This document shows positions 1,835-20,645 of a stretch of DNA of 25,818 nucleotides, one piece after another. The DNA comes from a virus. The notes under the pieces are model-generated. The model was given only the letters and a program-made list of their open reading frames with translations. It was not told the origin of the DNA and made no database searches. Each line of letters starts with the position of its first letter. Within the stretch, counting starts at the first letter, position 1. The position numbers and the translations under genes were made by a program. The stretch is taken from positions 1 to 25,818 of the IMG/VR virus record IMGVR_UViG_3300043446_000708; one strand, 5' to 3'.

Positions 1835-2049
1835 TCTACTTTGCCTACTTTTGCCTCGGCCTGTTCGTTGGCGTTGGCCTCACCGTGCTGTGGCTCGCCG
1901 TGTTTGCTGGCCCACCTGTCGACCATGTCACGCTCGAGCCAGTGCAGCGTCAGCCTGACTTTGGTGATGCCTACATGGAGCGCGAGGCTCGTCGCGTCGA
2001 GCGCCCACTGTACGAGAAGAGCGTGGCTGGCGTGGTGGTCAAAGACTGA
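1831..2049 (+). CDS. Single-pass membrane protein between terminase genes (72 aa)
   Basis: I choose the TTG at 1831. It overlaps the TerS stop (TTGA) and has GGAG seven bases upstream; a longer reading from 1693 would overlap TerS by 140 nt. Residues 2-26 (IYFAYFCLGLFVGVGLTVLWLAVFA) form one strong membrane segment without a leading charge cluster. The remaining ~45 residues are soluble and charged (MEREARRVERPLYEKSV). The topology resembles an N-anchored small protein. The family is not recognised. The stop overlaps the large-terminase ATG by one base, so it is embedded in the packaging operon. Roles in membrane tethering or lysis are guesses only. Confidence 0.6.
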   Translation: MIYFAYFCLGLFVGVGLTVLWLAVFAGPPVDHVTLEPVQRQPDFGDAYMEREARRVERPLYEKSVAGVVVKD

Positions 2050-3437
2050 TGGCCGTCATCAACTACGCCCCGACTGGCCCTGTCTCCCGCGCCTTCATGT
2101 GGGACGACAGCTTCTTTCGCGGCATCATGGGGCCGTTCGGCTCTGGCAAGTCCACCGTCTGCATCATGGACATACTGCGCAGGTCGCAGCAGCAGAAAGT
2201 TGGAAGCGATGGCAAGCGCCGCAGCCGTTGGGCCGTGGTGCGTAACACCTACCCAGAACTGCGCACTACCACGATCAAGTCATGGCATCAGTGGGTTCCA
2301 CCACAGCTTGGCCGTTGGGTCGACACTGGCCCACCCACGCATCACATCCAAGAGGGCGACCTCGACATGGAGATCATCTTCGTGTCGCTCGACCGTCCTG
2401 ATGACGTTGCCAAGCTGCTCGGTATGGAGCTGACAGGCGCATGGATCGACGAGGCCCGTGAAGTACCCAAGGCCGTAGTCGACGGCCTGACTGGTCGTGT
2501 CGGTCGCTACCCCAGCAAGATGATGGGTGGCTGCTCGTGGTCTGGCATCATCGCCTCGACCAACCCGCCTGACAGCGATCACTGGTGGTACAAGCTGGCC
2601 GAGGACGTTCACCCCGAGGGCTGGCGCTTCTTCCGTCAGCCATCAGGCATGTCGCCCGATGCAGAGAACCGTGAGAACCTGCCGCCCAACTACTACGAGC
2701 GCCAGATCGCAGGCAAAGACGAGGATTGGGTCAAGGTCTACGTCCACGGCGAGTACGGCTTCGTGCGCGATGGCCGACCCGTCTATCCCGAGTACAAGGA
2801 CGCGATCCACTGCAAAGAGTTCGACCTGCTGCCCTCCGTGCCGATCCATGTGGGCATCGACTTTGGTCTGACACCTGCCGCCGTGATCGGCCAGAAGACC
2901 GCGATGGGCCAATGGCGCTGGCACTCTGAGCTGGTGACCGAGGACATGGGTGCGGTGCGCTTTGCCCAGCTCCTGAACCAGCACATCCAGACGCACTACA
3001 AAGGCTTTCCGATTGGCTCGATCACGGGCGACCCTGCTGGTGACATCCGTGCGCAGACCGATGAGATCACGCCCTTCCAGATTCTGAGAGCCAACGGCGT
3101 GATGGCAAACCCTGCCGCAACCAACGACTTCATCAAGCGCCGCGAGAGTGTGGCCGTGCCTCTCACGCGCCTAATCGATGGCAGCGCAGGCCTGATCATT
3201 CACCCGCAATGCAAGATGCTGCGCAAAGGCATGGCAGGGGGCTACAATTACAAGCGACTACAAGTCACGGGCGAAGAGCGCTACCGCGATGTTCCCGACA
3301 AAGGCAAATACTCCCACGTTTGTGAAGCTGGGCAGTACATGATGGTCGGCGGCGGCGAAGCGAAAGCGCTTGTCAGGCGTGATCGTCCTGCATTTCGGCA
3401 GGCGACCGCAATCTCAGACTACAACATCATGGGGTGA
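2049..3437 (+). CDS. terL: Terminase large subunit (TerL), ATPase/nuclease
   Basis: This is the motor that translocates and cuts phage DNA at the portal. The 462-aa length is normal for a podovirus TerL. Visible landmarks are the Walker A motif GPFGSGKS (residues 28-35), an adenine-binding-type segment after WAVVRNTYPELR, Walker B GAWIDEA with the Asp-Glu pair at 134-135, and a coupling-type segment ASTNPP. The RNase H-like nuclease domain starts at GIDFGLTP (Asp271), with a second acidic site at GDPAGD (Asp328). The start overlaps the upstream stop by one base. The order TerS, small membrane protein, TerL, small proteins, portal fits T7/BPP-1-like podoviruses. Confidence 0.95.
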   Translation: MAVINYAPTGPVSRAFMWDDSFFRGIMGPFGSGKSTVCIMDILRRSQQQKVGSDGKRRSRWAVVRNTYPELRTTTIKSWHQWVPPQLGRWVDTGPPTHHIQEGDLDMEIIFVSLDRPDDVAKLLGMELTGAWIDEAREVPKAVVDGLTGRVGRYPSKMMGGCSWSGIIASTNPPDSDHWWYKLAEDVHPEGWRFFRQPSGMSPDAENRENLPPNYYERQIAGKDEDWVKVYVHGEYGFVRDGRPVYPEYKDAIHCKEFDLLPSVPIHVGIDFGLTPAAVIGQKTAMGQWRWHSELVTEDMGAVRFAQLLNQHIQTHYKGFPIGSITGDPAGDIRAQTDEITPFQILRANGVMANPAATNDFIKRRESVAVPLTRLIDGSAGLIIHPQCKMLRKGMAGGYNYKRLQVTGEERYRDVPDKGKYSHVCEAGQYMMVGGGEAKALVRRDRPAFRQATAISDYNIMG

Positions 3438-4047: not shown

Positions 4048-5703
4048 ATGACCGACTCTCGCGTCGATGACATCATTCGCCGTCAAGAAAAGATGGCGAC
4101 CGACAGGGCTATCTTTGACAGCCACTGGCGCGAGATTGCAGAGCGCATCTTGCCCCGTTCCGATCACTTCAAGGTCAACCGCAACGCAGGCGACAAGCAC
4201 ACCGAGCGCGTGTTCGATGCCACGGCCAACCTTGCCCTCGAGCGCTTTGCTGCCGCGATGGAATCGATGCTCACGCCTCGCACCCAGCGCTGGCACAAGC
4301 TCAAGACTGGCGTGCCTGAACTCGATGAGAACCAAGAGGTCAAAGAGTATCTCGATGCCCTGACCCAGATTTTGTTTCAGGTGCGCTATGCACCCAAAGC
4401 CAACTTCGCGTCACAGGCCAACGAGTGCTACATCGGCCTCGGTGCTTTCGGCACGAGTGGCATGTTCATCGATGACCTGATCGGCCACGGCATTCGCTAT
4501 CGCTCCGTGCCACTCAACGAGATGTTCATCGCTGAGAACCACCAAGGCATGGTCGACACCGTGCATCGTCGCTTTCCGATGACAGCACGCCAAGCCGCCC
4601 AGCGCTTTGGCACAAAGATGTTGCCAGAGGCCATCAAGAAGGCCGTCGAAAAGTCGCCCGAGCAAAACTTCGACTTCATCCATGCTGTGATGCCTCGCGG
4701 CGAGATTGATGGCAACCGCAAAGACTACAAAGGCATGCCCATCGCCTCGTGCTACATCGCCATCGATGGCCGCAGCATCGTGGGCGAAGGTGGCTTCCAC
4801 ACCATGCCGTATGCCGTGGGTCGCTACGTCACTGGCCCCAAAGAGGTCTATGGCCGCAGCCCTGCGATGACCGTGCTGCCTGACATCAAGATGCTCAACG
4901 AGATGAGCAAGACGGTGATCCGCGCTGCTCACAAGATGGTCGACCCTCCTCTGCTTTTGCAGGAAGACGGTGCGCTGGCTGCATTCGACATGCGACCAAG
5001 CGCCCTCAACTACGGTGGTGTCAACGAGCAGGGCCAGCAGCTCGTGCATGCGTTGCAGACCAACGGTCGCGTCGACATCGGCCTCGACATGATGGATCAG
5101 CGCCGCAAGGTCATCAACGATGCCTTCTTGGTCACGCTGTTCCAAATCCTCGTCGACTCGCCACAGATGACGGCGACCGAGGCCATGCTGCGTGCGCAGG
5201 AGAAGGGCGCTCTGTTGGCTCCGACAATGGGCCGTCAGCAGTCCGAGTTCCTTGGCCCACTGATCGAGCGCGAGATCGACATCTTGGCTCGAGCTGGTGT
5301 GCTGCCGCCCATGCCTGACGTTTTGCGTGAGGCTGGTGGCTCGGTCGACATCGAGTACGCATCGCCCTTGAACCGCGCCCAGCGTGCCGAGGAAGGCGTG
5401 GCGATCATGAACACCTTGCAGGCCATCGCGCCGCTGGCTCAGATCGACCCGTCTGTGATGGATGTGTTCGACCCAGAGGCCGTGGCCCGTGAGTTGGCCG
5501 ACATCAACGGCGTGCCTGCCAAGGTCATGCGCTCTGCCGAAAAGATGAAGGCGCTCAACGATCAGAAGGCACAGGCTGCACAGGCCCAGCAACTGCTCGA
5601 GGCTGCACCCGTGGCCGCAAGCACTGCAAAAGACTTGGCACAGGCGCAGGCGTTGGCCTCGTCCAGCCCTTCACAGCAAACCCCTAACCTGTTCGCAGCA
5701 TGA
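4048..5703 (+). CDS. Portal protein (head-tail connector)
   Basis: This is the dodecameric ring at the packaging vertex through which DNA enters and leaves. The 551-residue product matches the T7 gp8/head-to-tail connector family in length and layout: an N-terminal helix with RQEKMATDRAIFDSHWREIAERILPR, then ATANLALERFAAAMESMLTPRTQRWHKL, a central YCI/RS-type beta region, and a C-terminal Ala/Gln-rich helical tail (residues ~500-551). GGAG lies seven bases before the ATG. The stop overlaps the next ATG by 4 nt. The family assignment is firm. Confidence 0.93.
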   Translation: MTDSRVDDIIRRQEKMATDRAIFDSHWREIAERILPRSDHFKVNRNAGDKHTERVFDATANLALERFAAAMESMLTPRTQRWHKLKTGVPELDENQEVKEYLDALTQILFQVRYAPKANFASQANECYIGLGAFGTSGMFIDDLIGHGIRYRSVPLNEMFIAENHQGMVDTVHRRFPMTARQAAQRFGTKMLPEAIKKAVEKSPEQNFDFIHAVMPRGEIDGNRKDYKGMPIASCYIAIDGRSIVGEGGFHTMPYAVGRYVTGPKEVYGRSPAMTVLPDIKMLNEMSKTVIRAAHKMVDPPLLLQEDGALAAFDMRPSALNYGGVNEQGQQLVHALQTNGRVDIGLDMMDQRRKVINDAFLVTLFQILVDSPQMTATEAMLRAQEKGALLAPTMGRQQSEFLGPLIEREIDILARAGVLPPMPDVLREAGGSVDIEYASPLNRAQRAEEGVAIMNTLQAIAPLAQIDPSVMDVFDPEAVARELADINGVPAKVMRSAEKMKALNDQKAQAAQAQQLLEAAPVAASTAKDLAQAQALASSSPSQQTPNLFAA

Positions 5704-6005
5704 TCGGCAACCTCACCAAAGCAGTCCAGCGCATCCTGAATCGCAAGCACGCCTATCGTGCCGTGTTCTTTGATGCGTCTGGCAACGTCAGCCCCAACGC
5801 CGAGATCGTGTTGGCCGACCTCAAGAAGTTCTGCCGCGCACAGTCCACCACGGTGACGGTGTCGCCCATCAGCAAGAACATCGACCCTCTGGCAATGGCA
5901 ATGGCCGAAGGTCGCCGCGAGGTGTGGATGCGCCTGATGGCCCACCTGCACATCGACGAGAAACAAGTCTTCAACCTCGAGGAACCAAACAATGGCAACG
6001 ACTAA
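5700..6005 (+). CDS. Bbp19-like phage structural-module protein (101 aa)
   Basis: The product has the motif order RAVFFDASGNVSPNAEIVLADLKKFCRA, ISKNIDPLAMAMAEGRREVWMRL and a short helix. This matches the small protein family typified by Bordetella phage BPP-1 Bbp19, encoded right after the portal. The conserved D...G...VL.DL..FCR and D....A..EGRR...R elements are all present. The function of the family is not established; its constant position suggests a morphogenesis role. It starts inside the portal stop (ATGA) and overlaps the next gene by 14 nt. Confidence 0.78.
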   Translation: MIGNLTKAVQRILNRKHAYRAVFFDASGNVSPNAEIVLADLKKFCRAQSTTVTVSPISKNIDPLAMAMAEGRREVWMRLMAHLHIDEKQVFNLEEPNNGND

Positions 6006-6444
6006 CGCAGCCAAGATGCTGTCTGGTGACAACCCAGCAGACGAGGCAAAAGAGTACAGCACAGCCGAGGGCAGCAGCACCAACGCAAAGGCTGCTGAGT
6101 TCTTCATGGTGTTGCTGATGGCCGCGCCAATGGCCCACATCCTGCACTTGCAGACGCGCAGCTTTGCCGAACACATGGCGCTCAACACGCTGTACTCAGA
6201 GCTGCCCGAGCTGACCGACACGTTGATCGAGTCCTACCAAGGCAAGTACGGCATCGTCGAGAACTACCCCAACCAAGCGACCATGCCGCCGTACAACAAC
6301 GCGCTCGAGTTCGTTGTGCATCTCAACAAGTTTGTGGACGACACGCGATACCTCGTGTGCGACGACAGCGAGATGCAGAACGCCATCGATGAGATCGTCA
6401 CGCTGCTGAACTCCACCACCTACAAGCTCAAGTTTCTTTCTTGA
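5992..6444 (+). CDS. Dps/ferritin-like phage protein (DUF5856-like, 150 aa)
   Basis: A GAGGAA ribosome-binding site lies just upstream. After a ~30-residue disordered N-terminus the protein is all helical. FFMVLLMAAPMAHILHLQTRSFAEHMALNTLYSELPEL...LIESYQGKYG closely follows the phage DUF5856 pattern, which I recall as a ferritin-like four-helix bundle. His49, His61, Asp76 and Glu80 have the same spacing (12, 15, 4) as the ferroxidase ligands His51, His63, Asp78 and Glu82 of E. coli Dps. The fifth Dps ligand, Asp67, corresponds to Asn65 here. A second histidine, His52, is an alternative to His49. Iron or DNA binding is an inference. The position between portal and scaffold is unusual for such a fold. 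Confidence 0.72.
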   Translation: MATTNAAKMLSGDNPADEAKEYSTAEGSSTNAKAAEFFMVLLMAAPMAHILHLQTRSFAEHMALNTLYSELPELTDTLIESYQGKYGIVENYPNQATMPPYNNALEFVVHLNKFVDDTRYLVCDDSEMQNAIDEIVTLLNSTTYKLKFLS

Positions 6445-6569: not shown

Positions 6570-7466
6570 ATGACTGATGCAACAAGCGGGTCTGCAATCA
6601 TTGCAGGCAACCCAGCAGGTGAACCCACTGCTGGAAATACTGGCGGTGATCCCACCGCATCAACTGGAATGACGGGCCAATCTGGTGCTGCCTCTGGCGA
6701 CATCGGCAAGCAGCCCGACACATCCACTGGCAACTGGTACGACAAGATCGAGGACAGCGAACTCAAGGGCTACGTTCAGAACAAGGGCTGGAAAGACCCA
6801 AGCGAGCTGGCCGTTGGCTACAAGAACCTCGAGAAGTTGCTCGGTGGTGAGAAGCTCCCACTGCCCAAGGGCGCAGACGATGCCGAAGGCTGGGGTCGCG
6901 TGTATGACGCGCTTGGCCGTCCGAAGTCTGCCGAAGAGTACAAGCTCCCCCTGCCCGAAGGCGACGATGGCTCATTTGCCAAGACCGCAGCCGCATGGAT
7001 GCACGAGGCTGGCCTGAACCAGAAGCAGGCCGAGCTGATCGCTGCCAAGTGGAACGAACACATGCAGGGCGCGATGGGCCAGCAGACCCAGCAGAGCGCT
7101 CAGAAGGTTGAGCAGGACATCGCCGCGCTCAAGGGCGAATGGGGTCAGGCTTGGAACGAGAACATCGCTCTCGGCTCACGCGCTGCCAAAGAGTTCGGCC
7201 TTGATGCTGACAAGCTCACAGCCATCGAAGGCGCTATCGGCACGGGCGAGATGCTCAAGCTGATGTCCCGTATTGGCCGTGGTTTGACCGAACACAACTT
7301 CGAGGGTGGCAACACCACACAGAGCTTTGGCATGACACCCGAGGCAGCGAAGCAGCGCATCGCCGCACTGCGTGCCGACACCGAGTGGGCAACCAAGTAC
7401 ATGAGTGGCAACGCTGACGCACAGGCTGAACTCAAGCGCCTGATGACAGTTGCATACCCAGAGTGA
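6570..7466 (+). CDS. Capsid assembly scaffolding protein
   Basis: This is the internal chaperone for prohead assembly, expected to leave before or during packaging. The 298-aa protein has a disordered Gly/Ala/Thr-rich N-terminus (to about residue 50). It then has the motif block WYDKIEDSELKGYVQNKGW, YKNLEKLLG, LPLPKGADD and YDALGRPKSAEEYKLPLP, seen in many podovirus scaffolds. Long charged helices with Gln-rich spacing follow, ending in a helical C-terminus (RADTEWATKYMSGNADAQAELKRLM) likely to contact the capsid protein. It lies directly upstream of the capsid gene region with a strong AAAGGAG site. Family identity comes from the conserved motif block and context. Confidence 0.85.
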   Translation: MTDATSGSAIIAGNPAGEPTAGNTGGDPTASTGMTGQSGAASGDIGKQPDTSTGNWYDKIEDSELKGYVQNKGWKDPSELAVGYKNLEKLLGGEKLPLPKGADDAEGWGRVYDALGRPKSAEEYKLPLPEGDDGSFAKTAAAWMHEAGLNQKQAELIAAKWNEHMQGAMGQQTQQSAQKVEQDIAALKGEWGQAWNENIALGSRAAKEFGLDADKLTAIEGAIGTGEMLKLMSRIGRGLTEHNFEGGNTTQSFGMTPEAAKQRIAALRADTEWATKYMSGNADAQAELKRLMTVAYPE

Positions 7467-7749: not shown

Positions 7750-8706
7750 ATGTCTTTCAACGTCTCCACGGCGTTCGTTCAGCAGTACAGCACGAACGTC
7801 CAAATGCTCTTGCAACAGCAAGGCTCTCGTCTGCGCAACACTGTGCAGAACTTCAAGTTCCAAGGTAAGGCCGCTTCTATGGCCGAGCAGTTCGGTCAGG
7901 TTTCTCCTGTTCGCAACCAGTCTCGCCACAGCGACACTCCCTTGATCTCCACTCCCCAAGACAAGCGTTGGATTTATCCAAACGACTACGATTGGGCTGA
8001 CTTGATCGACTCGCAGGACAAACTGCGCATGTTGATCGACCCAACTTCCAGCTACGCAATGGCTGGCGCTTGGGCGATGGGCCGCGCCATCGACGACGAA
8101 ATCATCTCTGGTTTCTACAACTCCAACAACACTGGTGAGAACGGCACGACCACCACTGGCACTTTGTACGCCTACAACAGCAACAGCCAGTCTGTTCCCG
8201 CTGCTACTGGCGCTGCTTCTGCCACTGGCCTGAACATTGCCAAACTCCGCGCCGCAAAGCGCAAGCTGTTGGAAGCCGAAGTCGATGTGGACAACGACCA
8301 GTTGTTCATGGCGATCACTGCCAAGCAGCACGACGACTTGTTGAACGAAGCTCAAGCGATCAGCTTGGACTACAACAGCAAGCCAGTGTTGGTTGACGGC
8401 AAGATCAGTCAGTTCATGGGCTTTAACTTCGTTCACAGCGAGCGCATCGCTGGTGGTGCAAACTTCAACACTGCCATCAACCCAGCCATCGCGTCTGGTT
8501 CTTCTGATGGTCAGTTCACCACTGGCTCACGCTACTTGGTTCCTTGCTGGGCTAAGTCTGGCATGGCCTTGGGTGTGTGGAACGATGTGCAGACCTCCAT
8601 CGACCGCCGCGCCGACAAGCGCAACTCTTATCAGGTGTATGTCACTGGCACGTTCGGTGGCGCACGCATGGAAGAGAAAAAGTGCGTCATCATCAACTGC
8701 GCTTAA
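7750..8706 (+). CDS. Major capsid protein
   Basis: This is the main shell protein, 318 aa, of the HK97-fold type used by many non-T7 podoviruses. It has an N-terminal arm (SFNVSTAFVQQYSTNVQMLLQQQGSRL), then DKRWIYPNDYDWADLIDSQDKLRMLIDPTSSYA, A-domain helices (LNIAKLRAAKRKLLEAEVD), and LFMAITAKQHDDLLNEAQ. The C-terminal part has RYLVPCWAKSGMALGVWNDVQTSIDRRADKRNSYQVY, a typical capsid closing segment. Codon use is distinct: 13 of 19 leucines are TTG, whereas CTG/CTC prevail in the large downstream genes. AAAGGG provides the ribosome-binding site. The family call is confident. Confidence 0.9.
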   Translation: MSFNVSTAFVQQYSTNVQMLLQQQGSRLRNTVQNFKFQGKAASMAEQFGQVSPVRNQSRHSDTPLISTPQDKRWIYPNDYDWADLIDSQDKLRMLIDPTSSYAMAGAWAMGRAIDDEIISGFYNSNNTGENGTTTTGTLYAYNSNSQSVPAATGAASATGLNIAKLRAAKRKLLEAEVDVDNDQLFMAITAKQHDDLLNEAQAISLDYNSKPVLVDGKISQFMGFNFVHSERIAGGANFNTAINPAIASGSSDGQFTTGSRYLVPCWAKSGMALGVWNDVQTSIDRRADKRNSYQVYVTGTFGGARMEEKKCVIINCA

Positions 8707-10361: not shown

Positions 10362-12644
10362 ATGCCCAAGGCCTCACCACTACGTTCCTCGTTCAACGCT
10401 GGCGAGTTGTCGCCTCTTATGGCTGGCCGCACTGATGTCAACAAGTACAGCAGCGGCTGCGATGAGATGCTCAACTTCATCCCTGCCGTGCAAGGCCCAG
10501 CGGTGCGTCGAGCAGGTTCTCGCTTTGTGGCAGAGGTCAAGAGCAGCGCCAACCGCACATGGCTGTCAAAGTTCGAGTTCAGCACAACGCAGGCCTATGT
10601 GCTTGAGTTCGGCCACCTCTACATTCGCTTCTACACCAACCACGGCCAGCTTCTGTCTGGTGGCTCGCCCTACGAGATCGTGTCGCCCTTCACTGCTGCT
10701 GAGATGACCAACAGCGATGGCACGTTTGCGCTGTCGATGGTGCAGTCTGGTGATGTGATCTACATCGCCCACCCAAATCACCCGCTGCAAAAGCTCTCGC
10801 GCTTTGGCAACACCAACTGGACGATTGCAGATGCGCCGCTGATCAACGGGCCGTACCAAACCCAGAACACCGACCGCACGATCACCGTCTACGCCAGCGC
10901 TAACACAGGCACGGTGACGCTGACAGCCAACTCGAGCATCTTCACCTCGAGCATGGTTGGCTCGTTCTTCTACCTCGAGCCAAAAGACCTGTCGGCCATC
11001 AAGCCGTGGACTGCTGGGCAGGAGTACACCACCAACCCCAACGGCGTGTATCGCCGCAGTGACGGCAAGACCTACATCTGCACGACCAACGGCACACCCA
11101 CGGCTGGCAAGGTATGGCGCACTGGCCCAGATAAACCGATCCACACCTACGGCACTGTGGCCGATGGCGACTACCAAGGCATCAGCGGCACGACCTGCGA
11201 GCGACAAGGCCTCGACTGGCAGTTCGTCGACTCTGGCTTTGGCTACGTCAAAATCACTGGCTACACCAGCGGCACTTCGGTGACCGCCGTGGTGCAGGGT
11301 ACAACCGTGCTGCCCACTGGTGTGGTTGGCTCTGGCAACGCGACCTTCCGCTGGGCCAAGGCTGCGTTCAATGCTGCTGATGGCTACCCTACCAAGGTCA
11401 CGTTCTTCCGCGAGCGCCTGACGCTGTCCAAGGGCATCCAGCTCTACTTCTCGGTGGCAGGTGACTTCGAGAACTTTGCGTCGAAAGACGACAGCGGCCA
11501 AGTGGTGGCCGACCGCGCCATTCAGTTGACGATCTCGAGCGACGAGGTCAACCAAGTGCAGTGGCTGGCCCCAACGCAGGCGCTGCTGGTCGGCACATCT
11601 GGCGGCGAGTTTGCATGCGCGGAGAACAGCACCAGCGATGTGTTTGCGCCATCCAACGTCAAGATCGAGCAGCAGACCTCCGAAGGCTCGCGTTCGGTTG
11701 CCCCTGTGCGCGTGGGCTATTCGACGCTGTTTGTGCAGCGCTCTGGCCGCAAGCTCAAAGAGGCCTCGTACAACTTCCAGCAAAACGGCTACGTCACCAA
11801 CGACCTGACCGTGCTGGCCGAGCATGTCACCTACAGCGGCATCGTCCAGACTGACTGGCACAAAGAGCCATACGTCTGCATGTGGGCTGCTCGAGGTGAC
11901 GGCAAGCTGCTGGGCTTCACGTTCAACAAAGAGCAGGACGTTCTCGGCTGGCATCCTCACCAGCTCGGCGGCGATGGCATTGTCGAGTCGGTGTGCGTTA
12001 TCCCGAACCCAAGCCAAGACCGTGACGACCTGTGGCTCATCGTCAAGCGCACGATCAACGGCACGACCAAGCGATACGTCGAGTACCTCGAGCGCGAGTA
12101 CCGCGATGGCGATGCTCAGTCGAGCTGCTTCTATGTCGACTGCGGCCTGACCTACAACGGCACGGCCACCACGACGATTAGCGGCCTGTCGCACCTCGAG
12201 GGCCAGACCGTGGCGATATTGGCTGATGGCGCGTCTCACCCAGATCGCGTGGTGACCAGCGGCTCGATCACGTTGCAGCGCTCTGCCTCTGTCGTGCAGG
12301 TCGGCCTGCCCTGCCCTGCGTGGCTCAAGACTACGCGCATCGAGGCTGGCGCTGGTGATGGCACAGCCCAAGGCAAGAGCAAACGCATCACCAAGGTGGT
12401 GTTTCGCTTTTACAATACGCTCGGTGCGTTGGTGGGGCCAGATGAGAACAACCTCGACACAGTCGAGTTCCGAACTGGCTCTGACTTAATGGATCAAGCG
12501 CCGCCGCTGTTCACTGGCGACAAAGGCCCGATTGATTGGGCTGGTGGCTATGACTTCGACGGCTTTGTGATGGTTAAGCAGGAGCAGCCGCTGCCGATGA
12601 CGGTGGTGGCGATCATGCCGCAAGTACACACATTCGACCGATGA
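10362..12644 (+). CDS. Tail tubular protein B / tail nozzle (T7 gp12-like)
   Basis: This is the hexameric nozzle at the tail tip. The 760 residues (T7 gp12 is 794) start with PKASPLRSSFNAGELSPLMAGRTDVNKYSSGCDEMLNFIPAVQGPAVRRAGSRFVAE, the hallmark N-terminus of this family. A long all-beta body follows with VQWLAPTQALLVGTSGGEFA and RSVAPVRVGYSTLFVQRSGRKLKE. No insertion or break is visible. The reverse strand carries a 601-codon open frame across it, which I treat as a composition artefact. The last codons overlap the ATG of the next gene (ATGA). Confidence 0.93.
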   Translation: MPKASPLRSSFNAGELSPLMAGRTDVNKYSSGCDEMLNFIPAVQGPAVRRAGSRFVAEVKSSANRTWLSKFEFSTTQAYVLEFGHLYIRFYTNHGQLLSGGSPYEIVSPFTAAEMTNSDGTFALSMVQSGDVIYIAHPNHPLQKLSRFGNTNWTIADAPLINGPYQTQNTDRTITVYASANTGTVTLTANSSIFTSSMVGSFFYLEPKDLSAIKPWTAGQEYTTNPNGVYRRSDGKTYICTTNGTPTAGKVWRTGPDKPIHTYGTVADGDYQGISGTTCERQGLDWQFVDSGFGYVKITGYTSGTSVTAVVQGTTVLPTGVVGSGNATFRWAKAAFNAADGYPTKVTFFRERLTLSKGIQLYFSVAGDFENFASKDDSGQVVADRAIQLTISSDEVNQVQWLAPTQALLVGTSGGEFACAENSTSDVFAPSNVKIEQQTSEGSRSVAPVRVGYSTLFVQRSGRKLKEASYNFQQNGYVTNDLTVLAEHVTYSGIVQTDWHKEPYVCMWAARGDGKLLGFTFNKEQDVLGWHPHQLGGDGIVESVCVIPNPSQDRDDLWLIVKRTINGTTKRYVEYLEREYRDGDAQSSCFYVDCGLTYNGTATTTISGLSHLEGQTVAILADGASHPDRVVTSGSITLQRSASVVQVGLPCPAWLKTTRIEAGAGDGTAQGKSKRITKVVFRFYNTLGALVGPDENNLDTVEFRTGSDLMDQAPPLFTGDKGPIDWAGGYDFDGFVMVKQEQPLPMTVVAIMPQVHTFDR

Positions 12645-13557: not shown

Positions 13558-16161
13558 ATGTCAGTAAAAATTCCAACCTACGAGTCGACACTCACGCCCA
13601 ACGGCTTTGGCGTTACGCCACAGGCTGCGCATGTCGAGTTTTCTGGCGCGTATGGCAAGGCCATGCAGCAGGTCGGCAGCGCGATTGACACTGGCGTTGG
13701 CCTCTACAAGCACAAGCTCGACGGCGATGCCGTGGCCGCAGCGGGTCAGACCGTGCAAGACTACTACCTGCAAAACATCGATCACCTCGATGAACTGAAA
13801 AAGAATGCTCCCGATGGTGCGCCTGATTTCAGCAAGGATTTCCTCAAGTCTTTCCAGACTGGCAAGGACAAGCTCATCTCGAGCATGACCAACGAGAAGG
13901 CCAAGAAGTTTGCGCAGGACAGGCTCAACAGCATCGAGCTGCACCTGTACAGCCAAGCCAAGCACTTTGAAACTCAGGCAGGCGAGGCCTTTGCTGACAA
14001 GAAGCTCGACGAGTCGACGGCCACCGCCGCTGCTATCGTCGCCAAAGAGCCGCAGGCGTTTGAGCTGGTCAAAGAGAACATGATGACCCAGCTTGCCAAC
14101 GCTGGGTACACAGACCCAAACAAGCGAAACGCTCGCGCTCAGTCCACGCTGCGCACGCTCACAGACGCTGCAAATTGGGCCGAGATCAAACGCAACCCTG
14201 CGCTGTTCAAGGCTGCGATGGAAGAAGGCTACGGCAAGACTGGTGGCGGCTTCGACAGCGCTTTGAAGTTCACGTTTACGCACGAGGGTGGCTACAACCC
14301 CAAGGACAGCAACGGCGCAGAAGTCAACATGGGCATCAACAAGGAACACAACCCTGATGTTGATGTGAAGAACCTGACCAAAGAAGGCGCAACCAAGCTC
14401 TACCGCGAGCGCTATTGGGACAAGATCGGCGGCGACCAGCTCGCTGCTCAGAACCCACAACTCGCCACGGCTGCGTTCGACACCGCTGTGCTGGCTGGCC
14501 CTGATCGCGCCAAGAAGCTGCTCGCGCAAGCTGGTGGCGATGTCAACAAGTTCATCGAACTGCGTCAGCAGTACCTCGATGGATTGGTTGCCAAGAACCC
14601 AGAGAAGTACGGCCCCTACAAAGCCGCATGGGACACCCGCACCAACGACCTGCGAGCCAGCAGCGAAACCGCTGTGGCCGTGCCTGAGTACATGCGTTCG
14701 CTGGTCAAAACCATTGAGCCTTCGCGATACCACGCATGGCTCGAGCATGCCACCACAGCCGTGAACCAAGTCAATGCGGTCGATCTGGCACGCTTTCAGG
14801 ACAGCCTGACAGACAGCAAGGCACGCGCCGACATGGGCATCACTGACAGCATCCCAAAGAGCGCTGTCGAGTTCACCAAGTTCTTGGGGCCAGAGAAGGG
14901 CCAGATCGCCTACCGCGAGTACCTCGGCCAGCAAGAGTACGCAGGCATGGTGTCAAAGCTCACCACGGCCACGCCCGAGCAGTTTCAGACGATGCTCAAC
15001 GAGCATAAGGCCGTCGACCCTCAGTCTGCTGGCTACGCTGGCGCACAGGAGCGCATTGGCAAGCTGACGACCGCATGGGCCAACGTGGTCAAGATGCGCA
15101 CGGACGACCCCGCCGCCTACTCGATGAAATACTCGCAGCCCGTCAAGGATGCGTTTGCAGCGCTGACTAGCGCACAGACACCAGATCAGGTCAAAGCCGC
15201 CGCATCGAGCTTTGCCACAGCTACGCTTGCAGAGCAGCAGCGCCTTGGTGTGTTGAAGCCACAAATCCTGACTGACGGCTACAAAAACCAGATCGTGGCT
15301 CAGTTCAGCCAGCAAGGTGACGGTGGTCAAAACGCCGCGCAGATGCTGCAAACGCTGGCCGACACATGGGGCAACCGTTGGCCCGAGGTGTACAAGCAGC
15401 TCGCGCCTGATCTGCCGCCCGTGGCAAAAGTCATCGGCACGCTTGGCCCAGAGATCAGCCCAGCCACCAAAGCGCTGATGGCCTCGACCGCCAAGATGAA
15501 GATGGACGACCTCAAATCTGGCGTGCCAAGCGATGTGTCGAAAGACCTCGAGGACAAGCTCAATGGCGCGTTCTCTGACTTCAAACGCTCAACCTCGTTT
15601 CAGGTTGGCGGCGTGTCCACGTTCGATGCCGTCTACGACTCGGCCAAGCGCTTGGCCTACGTCTACGCTGCGCAGGGCGCGAAGCCCTCTGATGCGGCGA
15701 ACAAGGCCTATCAAGAGATCATCGGCAAGAGCTATGAGTTCAGCGGCGCTGCACGCATCCCGAAGGGCTACGATGTCAACGCTATCGAGCGCGGCGCTCA
15801 GAACGCCATCGATTTGCTGCACACCTACGACTTGGCCTTGCCTCCGATCCCCGCTGGCATGACCGAGAAAGACGCAAAGAGCCAGTACATCGACGGCTTG
15901 AAATTCAACAGTCAGTCTGTTTGGTTGACCTCTGGCGATGAAAAGGGCTTGGTGTTGTATGACGCTGTGTCTGGCACGCCTGTGAAGCTCAAAGATGGCC
16001 GCGATGTGCGCTTCTCGTGGGATACTCTCATCCAGAACGGTGGCCCCTCTCTGTTGCAGAAGTTGACCTTCCAGACTCCGCAGACCAAGTCGAGCGAGCA
16101 GCCCAACACAGCGGCAGTTCCCGACATGAAGGCCAAAGACACAAAGACTTGGAATAAATAA
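13558..16161 (+). CDS. Ejection protein (T7 gp15 position) with embedded muramidase-like domain
   Basis: This 867-aa internal virion protein lies between the gp14-like gene and two larger core proteins, where T7 has gp15 (747 aa). Residues ~1-230 and ~380-867 are long helices with no clear family mark. Between about 235 and 370 lies a lysozyme-like segment: FTHEGGYNPKDSNG with Glu243 as candidate catalytic acid, VNMGINKEHNP, LTKEGATKLYRERYWDKIGG (YWD at 286-288), then FDTAVLAGP and LRQQYLDGLVAKNP. The order matches GH108-type muramidases. It would locally open peptidoglycan while DNA enters. In T7 this activity is in gp16 instead. GGGG lies before the ATG, and TAATG couples it to the next gene. 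Confidence 0.82.
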   Translation: MSVKIPTYESTLTPNGFGVTPQAAHVEFSGAYGKAMQQVGSAIDTGVGLYKHKLDGDAVAAAGQTVQDYYLQNIDHLDELKKNAPDGAPDFSKDFLKSFQTGKDKLISSMTNEKAKKFAQDRLNSIELHLYSQAKHFETQAGEAFADKKLDESTATAAAIVAKEPQAFELVKENMMTQLANAGYTDPNKRNARAQSTLRTLTDAANWAEIKRNPALFKAAMEEGYGKTGGGFDSALKFTFTHEGGYNPKDSNGAEVNMGINKEHNPDVDVKNLTKEGATKLYRERYWDKIGGDQLAAQNPQLATAAFDTAVLAGPDRAKKLLAQAGGDVNKFIELRQQYLDGLVAKNPEKYGPYKAAWDTRTNDLRASSETAVAVPEYMRSLVKTIEPSRYHAWLEHATTAVNQVNAVDLARFQDSLTDSKARADMGITDSIPKSAVEFTKFLGPEKGQIAYREYLGQQEYAGMVSKLTTATPEQFQTMLNEHKAVDPQSAGYAGAQERIGKLTTAWANVVKMRTDDPAAYSMKYSQPVKDAFAALTSAQTPDQVKAAASSFATATLAEQQRLGVLKPQILTDGYKNQIVAQFSQQGDGGQNAAQMLQTLADTWGNRWPEVYKQLAPDLPPVAKVIGTLGPEISPATKALMASTAKMKMDDLKSGVPSDVSKDLEDKLNGAFSDFKRSTSFQVGGVSTFDAVYDSAKRLAYVYAAQGAKPSDAANKAYQEIIGKSYEFSGAARIPKGYDVNAIERGAQNAIDLLHTYDLALPPIPAGMTEKDAKSQYIDGLKFNSQSVWLTSGDEKGLVLYDAVSGTPVKLKDGRDVRFSWDTLIQNGGPSLLQKLTFQTPQTKSSEQPNTAAVPDMKAKDTKTWNK

Positions 16162-19100
16162 TGCCCATCTATCTCGATGAAACCCGCAACGGCCTGTCTC
16201 CCCTGACTGACTACCAATCGGGGTTCGGTGAGTACGTTGGCGCAAAGGCCGTGGGTGCTTTCAAGGAAAGCCCTGCGATGCTGTCGGCTCAGACGGCCAC
16301 GGTGTTTGATGCCGAGCATGGCACGAACCTGACCGACCAGATGTTCGACACTGGCCTGACTGGTTCAGAGATCGTCGGCAAGTACATCGACAGCACGCCA
16401 AAAGAGGTCGTGCGCCTGTCAGCAGATGATGCTCGCAAGAAGATCAAAGAGACGGGTGTCAAGCTCACCGTGCCAGACAGCGGCATCAGCGCCGAGGCTC
16501 TCGACCTGCTGATCAAAAACCAGCAAGACCGCACAGCTCGAAACCTAGCCATCGAGCGCTCGCCCAACGGCCTGCGCAACGTGGCTGGCTTTGGTGCTGC
16601 TTTCGCTGGCTCGCTGCTCGACCCCATCAACGTGGCAACTGGCCTTGTGCCGATCATCGGTGAGGCTCGCTACACCTCCCTGCTCGCTCAATCCGCTGGC
16701 AGCTTTGCTGGCCGCACTGCGATTCGCGCAGGCGTTGGCTTTGCCGAGGGTGTGGTCGGCACTGCCGCGCTCGAGCCAATGATGATGGGCCTGAACAAGC
16801 AGCTCCAGAACGACTACAACATGACCGACTCGCTGCTGAACGTGGCGTTCGGTGGTGTGTTCGGTGGTGGCCTGCACACCATCGGTGGCGGCTTTGGTGA
16901 AGGCCTGCGCAACTACGGCGGCAAGGCCCACCCGTGGGACGCATATCGCGGTCTGTCGATGAACGAGTCGATGACCGTGATGAAGTTTCAGTCCATGCTC
17001 GAGGCTGGAAAAATCGAAGACGTTGGCGCGGCCACTGCTGGCTGGACTGAACGCATGCGCGAGGCCGCTGGCTTCAAAGGCGCAGAGCCGCCTGCCGTGG
17101 TGCGTGAAGATGGCTACCAGCCACGAGAAGCGCCAGAGGCTCCCTTTGCACGCCTGTACGAAACAACGCCCGAAGCCGCACGCATGCAGGCCATCGGTGA
17201 TGTGCGTGAGACGATCCGCGCTGACTTGCTCGCCACTGCTGGCAACCGCGCCGAGGGCGGCGACATCGCCCAGCTTCGCAGCCAACTGGACGACACCAAG
17301 AGCAGGCTCGAGTCGCTCAACGAGGCCGACTTCAAGCGCCGCGCCAAGGAAGCCCAGCAGCAGGGCATGAGCCGCAAAGAAGCCGAGTCTGCTGCGCGTA
17401 AGCAGATCAATGACGAGCTTTCGAGCCTCGAGGCCACCAAGAAGAACATCGAACAGCAGATCGACACCAACGCCAAGGCCAGCCAAGCCGAGCAGATGAT
17501 GGCCGCGCTGGACAAGGGCGAAGTGCCACCAGCCTACGAGCATTTGGTGCAGGCTCGCATCGAGCAGATCGCTGCCGCTGCTGACATGGCCCGTGCCACG
17601 TTGCAGATGGATCAGATGCCTGCCCCGTTCGTGATCGGCATGGCCTCGCCACAGACCCGTCAGGTTGCCCTGTCCACAGCCGTTGCGCACCTTGCCCAAG
17701 GCCAGAGCGTCAACGTCGAGCCGATCTTTCACATCGAGGCTGGCAAGATGTCGCCTGCCGATGTGGTGGCCGCAGCCCAGCGCCAGCAGCAACCCAGCGC
17801 GTCTGGCTTGGCCGACGAAAGCGCATCGGCACAGGCAACCGAGCGCCTTGCTCGCAGCGACAAAAAAGACGCAAACCTCGAGGCCGCACAGAAGGCCAGC
17901 GACAGTGCCGTCGAGCGCTTGAACCAGACAATCGCCAACCTCGAGAAGAATGGCGCAAGCCCTGAACTGATCGAGCGCCTGCGTGCCGAGCAGAAGCAGC
18001 AAGGCTTGTACTCTCGCGGCCAAAGCGCTGGCTCCACTGTTGAGGAAACCACATCGGCGTTGCGCGAATCGTTTGACGGTGATGGCGGCAAGCTCGTCGA
18101 CAGCGGTGCGGTCAAGGTCGTGCAGACCGTGGCCGAGCTGCCAGCTCGAGCAGACGGCCAGCCTCACCCTGCCGACACCAAAGGCATGTTCGACGGCAAA
18201 AACGGCTACATCGTTGCCGACAACGTGGCCGCTGCCGATGCGCCTCGCGTGCTGCTGCACGAGGCTGGCGTTCACTACGGCATGCGCCAGATGCTGGGCG
18301 AAGGCCTGTTCCGCAAGCTCACCAAAGAAGTTGAGAAGCGTGCAGCCGCTGGTGAAGAAGGCTTTGTGGACGGCTTGCGCCAAGTGCCAAGCGACACGCC
18401 AGACCATCAGGTGGCCGAGGAGATCATGGCCTATCTGGTCGAGAACCGCCCAGAGCTGCCATTGGTCAAGCGCATCATCAGCCAGATCAAGGCGTTCCTG
18501 TATCGCGTGCTTGACGGCAACCTGATCAACCTGTCGCCCGACGACATTCGCACGATGGCCGTGGCCGCGCTCAAGAAGGTGTCGAGCGCCGAAGCAATGG
18601 GCGCACGCAGTGCAGAGCCACCGAACTACGCCCGTGGTGCAAAGCAGGCCATCGAAGCACAGGGCGGCACGGTCAAAGAGGTTGCGCCTCTCGACCAGAT
18701 CGCCTCGTCCGACCGCATCCCGATGATCACGCTCAAAGACCTGATCGGCATGCGCCTCATCCCAACGATTGCTGACCGCACCAAGGCTGGCGCGTTGTTT
18801 ACTGGCATCGATGGCTCCAAGCTCCAGATGGCCGTGCCTTTGCTGGGTGGCCCCAACTTCCCTCTGCGCGAATCCAACATGGACGCAGGCGTGGTGTGGG
18901 CAAACCGTGGCAAGTCTGTCGCATCGCTCAAAAAGGGCAAGATGGATCAGGGCGCGGAGTACATGATGGTGGTGTTGGGTTCGCCCGACATGCACAAATC
19001 GAACTCGACCGTGGCAAACGCGATGATCGGCCAGATCAGGTCTTACTTGAGCGACCGCCGCATCACCAAGGGCAATGCCGAGAAGCTGACCAACCTGATC

Positions 19101-20645
19101 CGCAACACCAAAGAAGCTGACGCAAACATCGCAGAGGCGCTGCGCAACTTCCCTGACCTGTCGGACAGCGAGAAGGCGATCAGCTACCTTGACAGCATCT
19201 CGTTTGAAGCACGCAAGCGCGTGGCGACCGTGCTGTCATCAGTGCAAGCCAGCGACATGGGTGCGCCCAACTTTCAGAAAATCCTCGATGCCACCGTCGA
19301 GCCTGAGTACGCAGGCAACCGCTGGGGTGACGGCGTTCTGGTGGTCAAGCTCAACCGCGAAAACCCCTTCATCACCCTTGGCGAGAACGGCACACAGCCT
19401 CACCCAGATTACCCTCTGGGCATGACGGGCGAAGTGGTCGGCAAGCTCAAGACCCCTGTGAACTACGAGCTGCTGTGGCAGGACTGGCTGTCAAAGGCCA
19501 ATGCCGATGCCCTCGCCCGTGGCACGCCAGCGGAAAAGATCAACACACGCCGAGCCTTTGAGCTGGGCAAGCCGATGGTCGAGATCACCCCTGATCTGGT
19601 CAAGCGCATTGGCGACCTCAACAGCGGCGACCTGACCCCTCGCCAAGCCAAGCTGGTCACCAGCGCCATGAACGACCGCTGGGCCACCTCTGACACCTTT
19701 GGCAAGGGCGGCATGCGTAGCGCCTCGCCTACCGAGTTCTGGCACGAAATGCAGCGCTCGCAGGCCTCGGCCATCATGCCGCGCCTTGATGCCAAGGAAA
19801 TCACCGACCAAGTCAGGGCCAAGACCCGCACGATCTACCAGCTCGACGATGCGGCCAAAGACGGCCCAGCCAGCCGCATCTATTTCAGCCTCCGCAAAGA
19901 GGCCAACCGAGTGGTATTGGATTCTTGGCTGAACAACGAAGTGGGTGCAAAAGGCTACGGCGGTGCTACAATCGCAAAAGCTGTTGCGGAAGGCGCAACA
20001 CATGCAGAGGTTCTGGCCGTGCCGACCGTGGGCCACCCGATGGGTCGCACCATCGAGATGCTCGAGGCGCTTGGCTTCAAGGTCGAAAAGGCTAAGAAGG
20101 CAGACCTCGGCGGCAAAGCAAACCGTGCTGACGCGCTGGACTATTTCAAGCGCAACGGCTGGAAAGAAGGCGAACCCGAGCCTCAACTGGTAACGCTGAA
20201 ATGGAGTGGAAACGATGGACAACGAGCAGGATTCTCAGAGCGTTATCTCGCAGGCAATTTTGACGGCATTCGACGCGAAGGAGCTGTCGACCATGTCGCA
20301 GCCGCAACGGACGCTGCTCAATCATCTGATCGATCTGCAAATCGAAAGGGCGGGGGTTCCGAGCCTAACGCCCGAGCGAATGAAGGGGATCAAGGACAGT
20401 CTGGGTCACCTGTGGGATCAGACCTTCGACAGCTCGCTGCCGACATCGGGCGGCTCTCAGACAACGAACTCCTGAACCTTGGCCTGACCCGCAACGAGCT
20501 GGGTCGGATCGCTGACGGTGACTTCCAAGCCAAGCTGCTTGATGAAGTAAAGTCCATCAACAAAGCCTTCGATGAAGGTGTCAAAGACGCACAAGGACTA
20601 GGTGAGGCCGTGAACGCCGCAGCCGTCTGTGGCTTGAGGAACTAA
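16161..20645 (+). CDS. Large internal virion protein, multidomain (1494 aa)
   Basis: It is the largest gene and starts inside the previous stop (TAATG). Residues ~140-170 and ~225-250 are Gly-rich hydrophobic segments that may insert in membranes. Residues ~370-445 and ~570-615 look like coiled coils. HEAGVH at 700-705 is an HExxxH zincin-like motif, with EE at 753-754 as a possible further ligand. Residues ~860-1150 form a domain I do not recognise. Residues ~1235-1300 (KGYGGA at 1264-1269, then MLEALGFKVEK) look like the C-terminal half of a GNAT fold. Such domain strings recall phage polyvalent ejection proteins. Codon signal in residues ~1352-1428 is abnormal because another gene is nested there. 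Position corresponds to T7 gp15/gp16. Confidence 0.75.
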   Translation: MPIYLDETRNGLSPLTDYQSGFGEYVGAKAVGAFKESPAMLSAQTATVFDAEHGTNLTDQMFDTGLTGSEIVGKYIDSTPKEVVRLSADDARKKIKETGVKLTVPDSGISAEALDLLIKNQQDRTARNLAIERSPNGLRNVAGFGAAFAGSLLDPINVATGLVPIIGEARYTSLLAQSAGSFAGRTAIRAGVGFAEGVVGTAALEPMMMGLNKQLQNDYNMTDSLLNVAFGGVFGGGLHTIGGGFGEGLRNYGGKAHPWDAYRGLSMNESMTVMKFQSMLEAGKIEDVGAATAGWTERMREAAGFKGAEPPAVVREDGYQPREAPEAPFARLYETTPEAARMQAIGDVRETIRADLLATAGNRAEGGDIAQLRSQLDDTKSRLESLNEADFKRRAKEAQQQGMSRKEAESAARKQINDELSSLEATKKNIEQQIDTNAKASQAEQMMAALDKGEVPPAYEHLVQARIEQIAAAADMARATLQMDQMPAPFVIGMASPQTRQVALSTAVAHLAQGQSVNVEPIFHIEAGKMSPADVVAAAQRQQQPSASGLADESASAQATERLARSDKKDANLEAAQKASDSAVERLNQTIANLEKNGASPELIERLRAEQKQQGLYSRGQSAGSTVEETTSALRESFDGDGGKLVDSGAVKVVQTVAELPARADGQPHPADTKGMFDGKNGYIVADNVAAADAPRVLLHEAGVHYGMRQMLGEGLFRKLTKEVEKRAAAGEEGFVDGLRQVPSDTPDHQVAEEIMAYLVENRPELPLVKRIISQIKAFLYRVLDGNLINLSPDDIRTMAVAALKKVSSAEAMGARSAEPPNYARGAKQAIEAQGGTVKEVAPLDQIASSDRIPMITLKDLIGMRLIPTIADRTKAGALFTGIDGSKLQMAVPLLGGPNFPLRESNMDAGVVWANRGKSVASLKKGKMDQGAEYMMVVLGSPDMHKSNSTVANAMIGQIRSYLSDRRITKGNAEKLTNLIRNTKEADANIAEALRNFPDLSDSEKAISYLDSISFEARKRVATVLSSVQASDMGAPNFQKILDATVEPEYAGNRWGDGVLVVKLNRENPFITLGENGTQPHPDYPLGMTGEVVGKLKTPVNYELLWQDWLSKANADALARGTPAEKINTRRAFELGKPMVEITPDLVKRIGDLNSGDLTPRQAKLVTSAMNDRWATSDTFGKGGMRSASPTEFWHEMQRSQASAIMPRLDAKEITDQVRAKTRTIYQLDDAAKDGPASRIYFSLRKEANRVVLDSWLNNEVGAKGYGGATIAKAVAEGATHAEVLAVPTVGHPMGRTIEMLEALGFKVEKAKKADLGGKANRADALDYFKRNGWKEGEPEPQLVTLKWSGNDGQRAGFSERYLAGNFDGIRREGAVDHVAAATDAAQSSDRSANRKGGGSEPNARANEGDQGQSGSPVGSDLRQLAADIGRLSDNELLNLGLTRNELGRIADGDFQAKLLDEVKSINKAFDEGVKDAQGLGEAVNAAAVCGLRN
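20203..20206 (+). promoter_or_regulatory. Ribosome-binding site for the nested gene
   Basis: GGAG eight bases before the ATG at 20215, inside the host gene. It is better placed than many genuine sites in the window, including the one for the host gene itself, and supports independent translation. Confidence 0.5.
20215..20475 (+). CDS. Nested overlapping gene in another frame (86 aa)
   Basis: It lies wholly within the 1494-codon gene, in a different frame, with GGAG eight bases upstream of its ATG. By my hand count 65 of 86 codons end in G or C (about 76%). In the host frame of the same stretch only 29 of 75 do (about 39%), although the host frame elsewhere is clearly G/C-ending. Its product reads like a real small protein: acidic N-terminus, helices (VISQAILTAFDAKELS; PQRTLLNHLIDLQIERAG; LTPERMKGIKDSLGHLWDQTF) and a Ser/Thr tail. 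The host frame here encodes a Gly/Ser/Asn/Arg-rich linker. I do not recognise a family. Confidence 0.55.
   Translation: MDNEQDSQSVISQAILTAFDAKELSTMSQPQRTLLNHLIDLQIERAGVPSLTPERMKGIKDSLGHLWDQTFDSSLPTSGGSQTTNS

Follow-up and report, generated by a model that had tools for sequence, protein, structure and literature searches.

A DUF5856 protein encoded in a phage head module as a probable reduced Dps-type mini-ferritin

Results

The head module and the position of the DUF5856 gene

The window analysed here is the whole stretch of 25,818 nucleotides of the viral record IMGVR_UViG_3300043446_000708, and the features discussed below are collected in Table 1. The ORF of interest lies between the portal and the scaffold-position gene, where the initial annotation had put it, with a Bbp19-like gene intervening after the portal. 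It starts within the final 14 bases of this Bbp19-like gene, and a GAGGA motif is found 8 bases 5' of its ATG; the overlap and the motif suggest translation coupled with the Bbp19-like gene. The vicinity of the ORF shows no promoter of the sigma-70 type. A Bbp19-like protein (PF25181, function unknown) also sits between the portal and the putative mini-ferritin in two other loci (L036 and L037).

Several further observations concern the surrounding genes. The scaffold-position gene also has weak matches to PHROGs labelled 'protease' (phrog_458, 1e-8; phrog_18242), which may be a misannotation of the scaffold region. An ORF of 1,494 amino acids (16161-20645) follows the gene for a lysozyme-like internal protein (13558-16161), and very long antisense ORFs are present on the minus strand opposite coding genes (16545-18995, 816 aa; 10566-12371, 601 aa; 4411-5592, 393 aa), probably as a by-product of codon bias.

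Table 1. Genes of the head module and codons of conserved or ligand-position residues in the window
Feature	Position	Strand	Matches and remarks
Terminase gene	2049-3437
Portal / head-tail connector	4048-5703	+	PF12236 4e-132, phrog_332
Bbp19-like small protein	5700-6005	+	PF25181 1.5e-12
DUF5856 / PHROG 858 protein, 150 aa	5992-6444	+	Pfam 6e-22, PHROG 4.2e-27, AlphaFold2, Foldseek/VIA
His49 codon	6136-6138	+	near-invariant (154/155); candidate extra metal ligand
His52 codon	6145-6147	+	invariant; corresponds to Dps His51 by sequence comparison
His61 codon	6172-6174	+	invariant; corresponds to Dps His63
Asn65 codon	6184-6186	+	at the Dps Asp67 position; variable (N, G, Q, E, R)
Asp76 codon	6217-6219	+	invariant; corresponds to Dps Asp78
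Glu80 codon	6229-6231	+	invariant; corresponds to Dps Glu82
Asp133 codon (helix D)	6388-6390	+	near-invariant; possible second-shell or extra ligand
Scaffold-position gene	6570-7466	+	phrog_3742 (annotated as unknown function)
Major capsid protein	7750-8706	+	PF19821 6e-83, phrog_3437

Family membership and predicted fold

The window protein is a member of DUF5856 (PF19174; 79 bits against a curated cut-off of 34.6) and of PHROG 858, which bears a Dps-type name, 'starvation-inducible transcriptional regulator'. A tblastn search detected relatives in 1,132 phage records; T4 (gene rI.-1), RB16, 44RR, and numerous Ackermannviridae are among them. The window protein gave no match above cut-off with the PF00210 profile, no match in NCBIfam, and no match in the PDB when searched as a single sequence, and one relative (L129) reached 12.8 bits with PF00210, below the cut-off of 24.5. 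The first PDB matches in a sequence search with a relative of the HW type (a sub-lineage described below) were HP-NAP, MrgA, and Dps chains. Canonical Dps proteins of gut and Lactobacillus phages, and those of Bacteroides and Streptomyces phages, are likewise phage-encoded members of the ferritin superfamily (PMC8008677), yet they match bacterial Dps directly by tblastn, which DUF5856 does not; DUF5856 is a lineage separate from, and far more diverged than, these proteins. Our literature search found no paper naming DUF5856 and no mechanism or ligand analysis of DUF5856 or PHROG 858.

The proposed ferritin-like bundle was borne out by structure prediction: AlphaFold2, run with 54 relatives, gave a four-helix bundle for the window protein (helices 32-53, 58-86, 104-122, and 126-148; pLDDT 88, pTM 0.80). 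Dps proteins lead the Foldseek matches of this model in the PDB with a probability of 1.00 and a weak E-value of 0.08, and VIA-align superposes it on Dps with Z-scores of 11-12 (maximum 12.2) over 123-130 residues, tied with other ferritin-like folds such as PA2169 and of a middling size that comes easily to helical bundles. The model of a HW-type relative was predicted with a pLDDT of 95, its Foldseek list is also led by Dps, and it reaches a VIA Z-score of up to 14.0 over about 120 residues to Dps. It is the ligand pattern, and not the fold scores alone, that tells Dps from other ferritin-like families.

Ferritins and bacterioferritins have a di-iron centre within each subunit, with ExxH motifs in helices B and D, whereas the window protein has no ExxH in helix B (58-86) and no histidine in helix D (126-148). 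The short BC helix in the B-C loop of Dps sits at the Dps dimer interface, and the model of the window protein shows no helix at the corresponding residues 87-103. Matches of the model in BFVD also include predicted proteins of Pithovirus and Fadolivirus, which are giant viruses of eukaryotes (A0A481ZC29 and A0A7D3V608, TMt 0.78 and 0.74), as well as long proteins labelled 'prohead protease' (label only).

Conserved ligands and their register with Dps

The initial annotation had noticed that H49, H61, D76, and E80 reproduce the 12/15/4 spacing of the iron ligands of E. coli Dps, with N65 at the place of the fifth. Residues and numbering in the window protein are as it gave them, and the Dps ligands H51, H63, D67, D78, and E82 were confirmed by reading Dps from MG1655; H51, H63, D78, and E82 are invariant in ten Dps compared, and D67 is the exception. 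Written strictly as H-x11-H-x14-D-x3-E, the pattern is above chance and nearly exclusive to the family, occurring in 114 of 115 family ORFs and in 1 of about 4,450 other ORFs of the same loci. The part of this claim that failed concerns the first histidine, as set out below.

Across 156 distinct members aligned to the window protein, full invariance is confined to the columns of H52, H61, D76, and E80, so the four Dps ligands are conserved among homologues as the Dps reading anticipated. D133, K145, Y68, and H49 are each 99.4% conserved in this alignment, and G84, L146, Y144, and S57 each 98.7%. The early homologues had been fetched with a seed containing H61, and conservation was therefore re-checked in the phage records found by tblastn and in contigs retrieved with a D...E...QG seed; SFAEHMALN had seemed invariant among the first homologues, a search-seed artefact that was discarded. 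H49, H52, H61, D76, E80, and D133 are present in every row of 80 further loci retrieved with another seed, and H49, H52, H61, D76, and E80 are also invariant between the window protein and those of T4, RB16, 44RR, and Kuttervirus. N65 falls on Asp67 in the profile alignment, as had been proposed, and this position varies freely in the family.

Sequence comparison identifies H52, and not H49, as the equivalent of Dps His51. H52 and H61 are spaced by 12 in 35 members and by 9 in 119, and 33 of the 35 members with the spacing of 12 have a Dps-style tryptophan directly after H52. In this HW sub-lineage the sequence reads A-H-F-A-H-W-R-A-K-G-D-G-S-F-A-K-H-M, where the second histidine, followed by tryptophan, stands 12 before the next histidine, exactly as in H51-W...H63 of E. 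coli Dps. One relative (L127) has a tryptophan at position 49 and retains H52. Two profile-profile alignments of the family with Dps (E 1.6e-4 and 4.5e-6) have the H52 register, pairing H52 with His51, H61 with His63, N65 with Asp67, D76 with Asp78, and E80 with Glu82 when the family is set against the ten Dps; this register needs a gap of three residues. The window protein thus carries a three-residue deletion in its A-B loop relative to Dps, since HW relatives keep the full 12-residue Dps loop and the profile alignment is gapped at this point. An ungapped register, with H49 on Dps His51 or HP-NAP His25, was returned by one smaller profile alignment and by HMMER, and was rejected as the HW intermediates and the other two profile alignments overrule it. 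H49 is itself nearly invariant, and the spacing of 12 counted from it is therefore partly fortuitous. Some Dps (L133 and L136) also have a histidine three residues before His51, matching H49. Viral contigs commonly carry the HW-loop sub-lineage (L129, L130, L140-L219), in many cases close to tail-fibre genes.

Genomic context across the family

Of the 92 dereplicated loci, 31 have the DUF5856 gene within 700 bases of a portal or terminase gene; the sample is biased towards relatives of the window, and most of its head-module rows come from one P22-portal lineage. Such portal-adjacent genes accompany four different portal families, and on a tree of the 92 dereplicated members the adjacency label needs five changes, at least three of which are forced by supported branches. 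The gene follows P22-like portals (phrog_156) directly in some loci, and it directly follows a phrog_1216 portal in two (L001 and L110), with scaffold and capsid genes coming next. It lies between terminase and portal in L046 and L058 and is followed by the portal gene in L118, while the window groups with L036, L037, L225, L229, and L232 by its Head-tail_con portal. At L041:3966-5339, between a phrog_12 portal and a phrog_10 capsid, an S49 peptidase of head-protease type carries the DUF5856 domain fused at its C-terminus, and the same fusion recurs between portal and capsid genes in a second metagenome assembly (L223:4107-5480).

Other members are found elsewhere. Those of T4, RB16, and 44RR lie directly after rI, that of P19250A directly before the holin gene, and others adjoin tail-fibre or HNH genes; no portal gene adjoins the T4-like and Ackermannviridae members.

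Discussion

We regard the ORF as probably encoding a minimal mini-ferritin of the Dps type, with an iron site across a dimer that oxidises Fe2+, made together with the head proteins. Its predicted four-helix fold is that of Dps and other mini-ferritins (E. coli Dps, HP-NAP, L. innocua Dps), and it has, in register with them, four of the five ligands of the ferroxidase site at their subunit interface. It differs in an A-B loop shorter by three residues, the missing BC helix, a variable Asp67 position, an extra histidine at 49, an acidic tail, and a core of about 120 residues. H52 lies at the end of helix A and H61 at the start of helix B, with D76 and E80 lying 15 and 19 residues further along the same helix. 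From helix geometry, the two pairs would be separated within one chain by about 15 helical residues, or roughly 22 A, and one chain alone could therefore not unite them; that all four are invariant together is understandable only if the pairs come into contact across an antiparallel dimer. Two subunits would thus pair in a Dps-like antiparallel fashion, with iron held by H52 and H61 of one and by D76 and E80 of its partner, while H49, one helical turn before H52, and perhaps D133 might take the place of the missing Asp67 ligand. The dimer may nevertheless differ from that of Dps, since the fifth ligand and the BC helix are missing.

The window protein probably still binds and oxidises iron. 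The site would use H2O2 or O2 to oxidise Fe2+, which late in infection might spare phage DNA or capsid proteins some of the damage done by hydroxyl radicals. The protein would be produced along with the head proteins, from a gene that overlaps the preceding one, and in some phages the mini-ferritin may reside in or on the virion. The initial interpretation thus holds for a Dps-type bundle with conserved ligands, which structure prediction, fold search, profiles, and conservation agree on, and fails for the His49 ligand; DNA binding in the manner of Dps finds no support. A Lys/Arg-rich terminal tail for DNA binding is present in some Dps only. Tail and core of the window protein are acidic (net charge -11 for the whole protein and -2 for the N-terminal 33 residues), so that tail-based DNA binding is unlikely, nor would one expect the protein to condense DNA as Dps does. 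With the BC helix absent and the tail acidic, neither Dps-like DNA binding nor a standard dodecamer can be assumed.

Among other explanations, a Dps-fold protein that serves in head assembly or inside the virion, and in which iron or zinc merely holds the dimer together and nothing is catalysed, accounts best for the data, and we still consider it unlikely. Adjacency to portal or terminase genes in four portal families, with its repeated changes on the tree, and the peptidase fusion between portal and capsid genes would fit such a role, as would the presence of a family member in virions of Sajous1. However, in two thirds of the sampled loci, and for the members from T4-like phages and Ackermannviridae, no portal gene is adjacent, the sample is skewed towards relatives of the window, and a set of four ligands suited to a redox site is kept without exception. 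Portal adjacency is thus suggestive and not proof, given the bias of the sample and the weight of one P22-portal lineage among its head-module rows, and a head role cannot be general to DUF5856, as the T4 gene adjoins rI outside the head module.

The virion evidence comes from gp217 of Sajous1, which was detected by mass spectrometry in CsCl-purified virions with 10 spectra and called 'Ferritin' by Phyre2 (PMC10892097); low spectral counts could reflect carry-over according to its authors, which applies to the ten spectra of gp217. We confirmed gp217 as a DUF5856 member with all ligands. Like the window protein it is a family member, whereas Sajous1 is a contractile-tailed member of the Ackermannviridae in which the gene lies by a tail-completion gene cluster and a primase, and not by a portal. 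Some DUF5856 members may therefore travel in the virion, and those of the head-module lineages could have a role there. Iron handling and a virion role are both inferred, with this published proteome as outside support. Going further, it is conceivable, and we propose it tentatively, that a Dps-type mini-ferritin has come to lie next to the portal gene repeatedly in unrelated phages, was once fused to the head protease, and is thereby carried inside or on the head.

A lysis-timing accessory that works through the holin/antiholin system, a function that has been proposed for T4 RI.-1, seems improbable. The positions after rI in T4, RB16, and 44RR and before the holin gene in P19250A would agree with it, as does the slightly longer lysis inhibition upon over-expression of T4 rI.-1 (Golec et al. 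2010, as summarised in PMC6832632). On the other hand, the reported effects are slight and stem from over-expression, the window protein, encoded in a head module, and most of its relatives have no rI neighbour, and RaK2 carries a DUF5856 member while having no rI, rIII, or t (PMC3622015).

Entry via host iron uptake by an iron-carrying virion protein (Ferrojan Horse) has been put forward for gp217 of the Vi01-like Sajous1, but entry was independent of TonB and FeoB in the tested host (PMC10892097) and the window protein has no tail association, leaving this reading very improbable. Least probable of all is chance resemblance in an unrelated helical bundle, for although four-helix bundles are common and the fold scores alone are middling, exactly four ligands are invariant, the HW intermediates have the Dps loop, and the better profile-profile match to Dps is in register, which already contradicts it.

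DUF5856 is classed as a family of unknown function and occurs in more than 1,100 phage records, and the invariance of its ligands gives a specific claim about function, namely a reduced Dps ferroxidase site in which H49 possibly replaces Asp67. T4 RI.-1, previously discussed only for lysis inhibition, is recast as a likely metal protein. If the head-module members are packaged, phage heads would carry a protein for iron or peroxide defence; the capsid would then bring its own iron-oxidising DNA guard, as encapsulins carry ferritin-like cargo.
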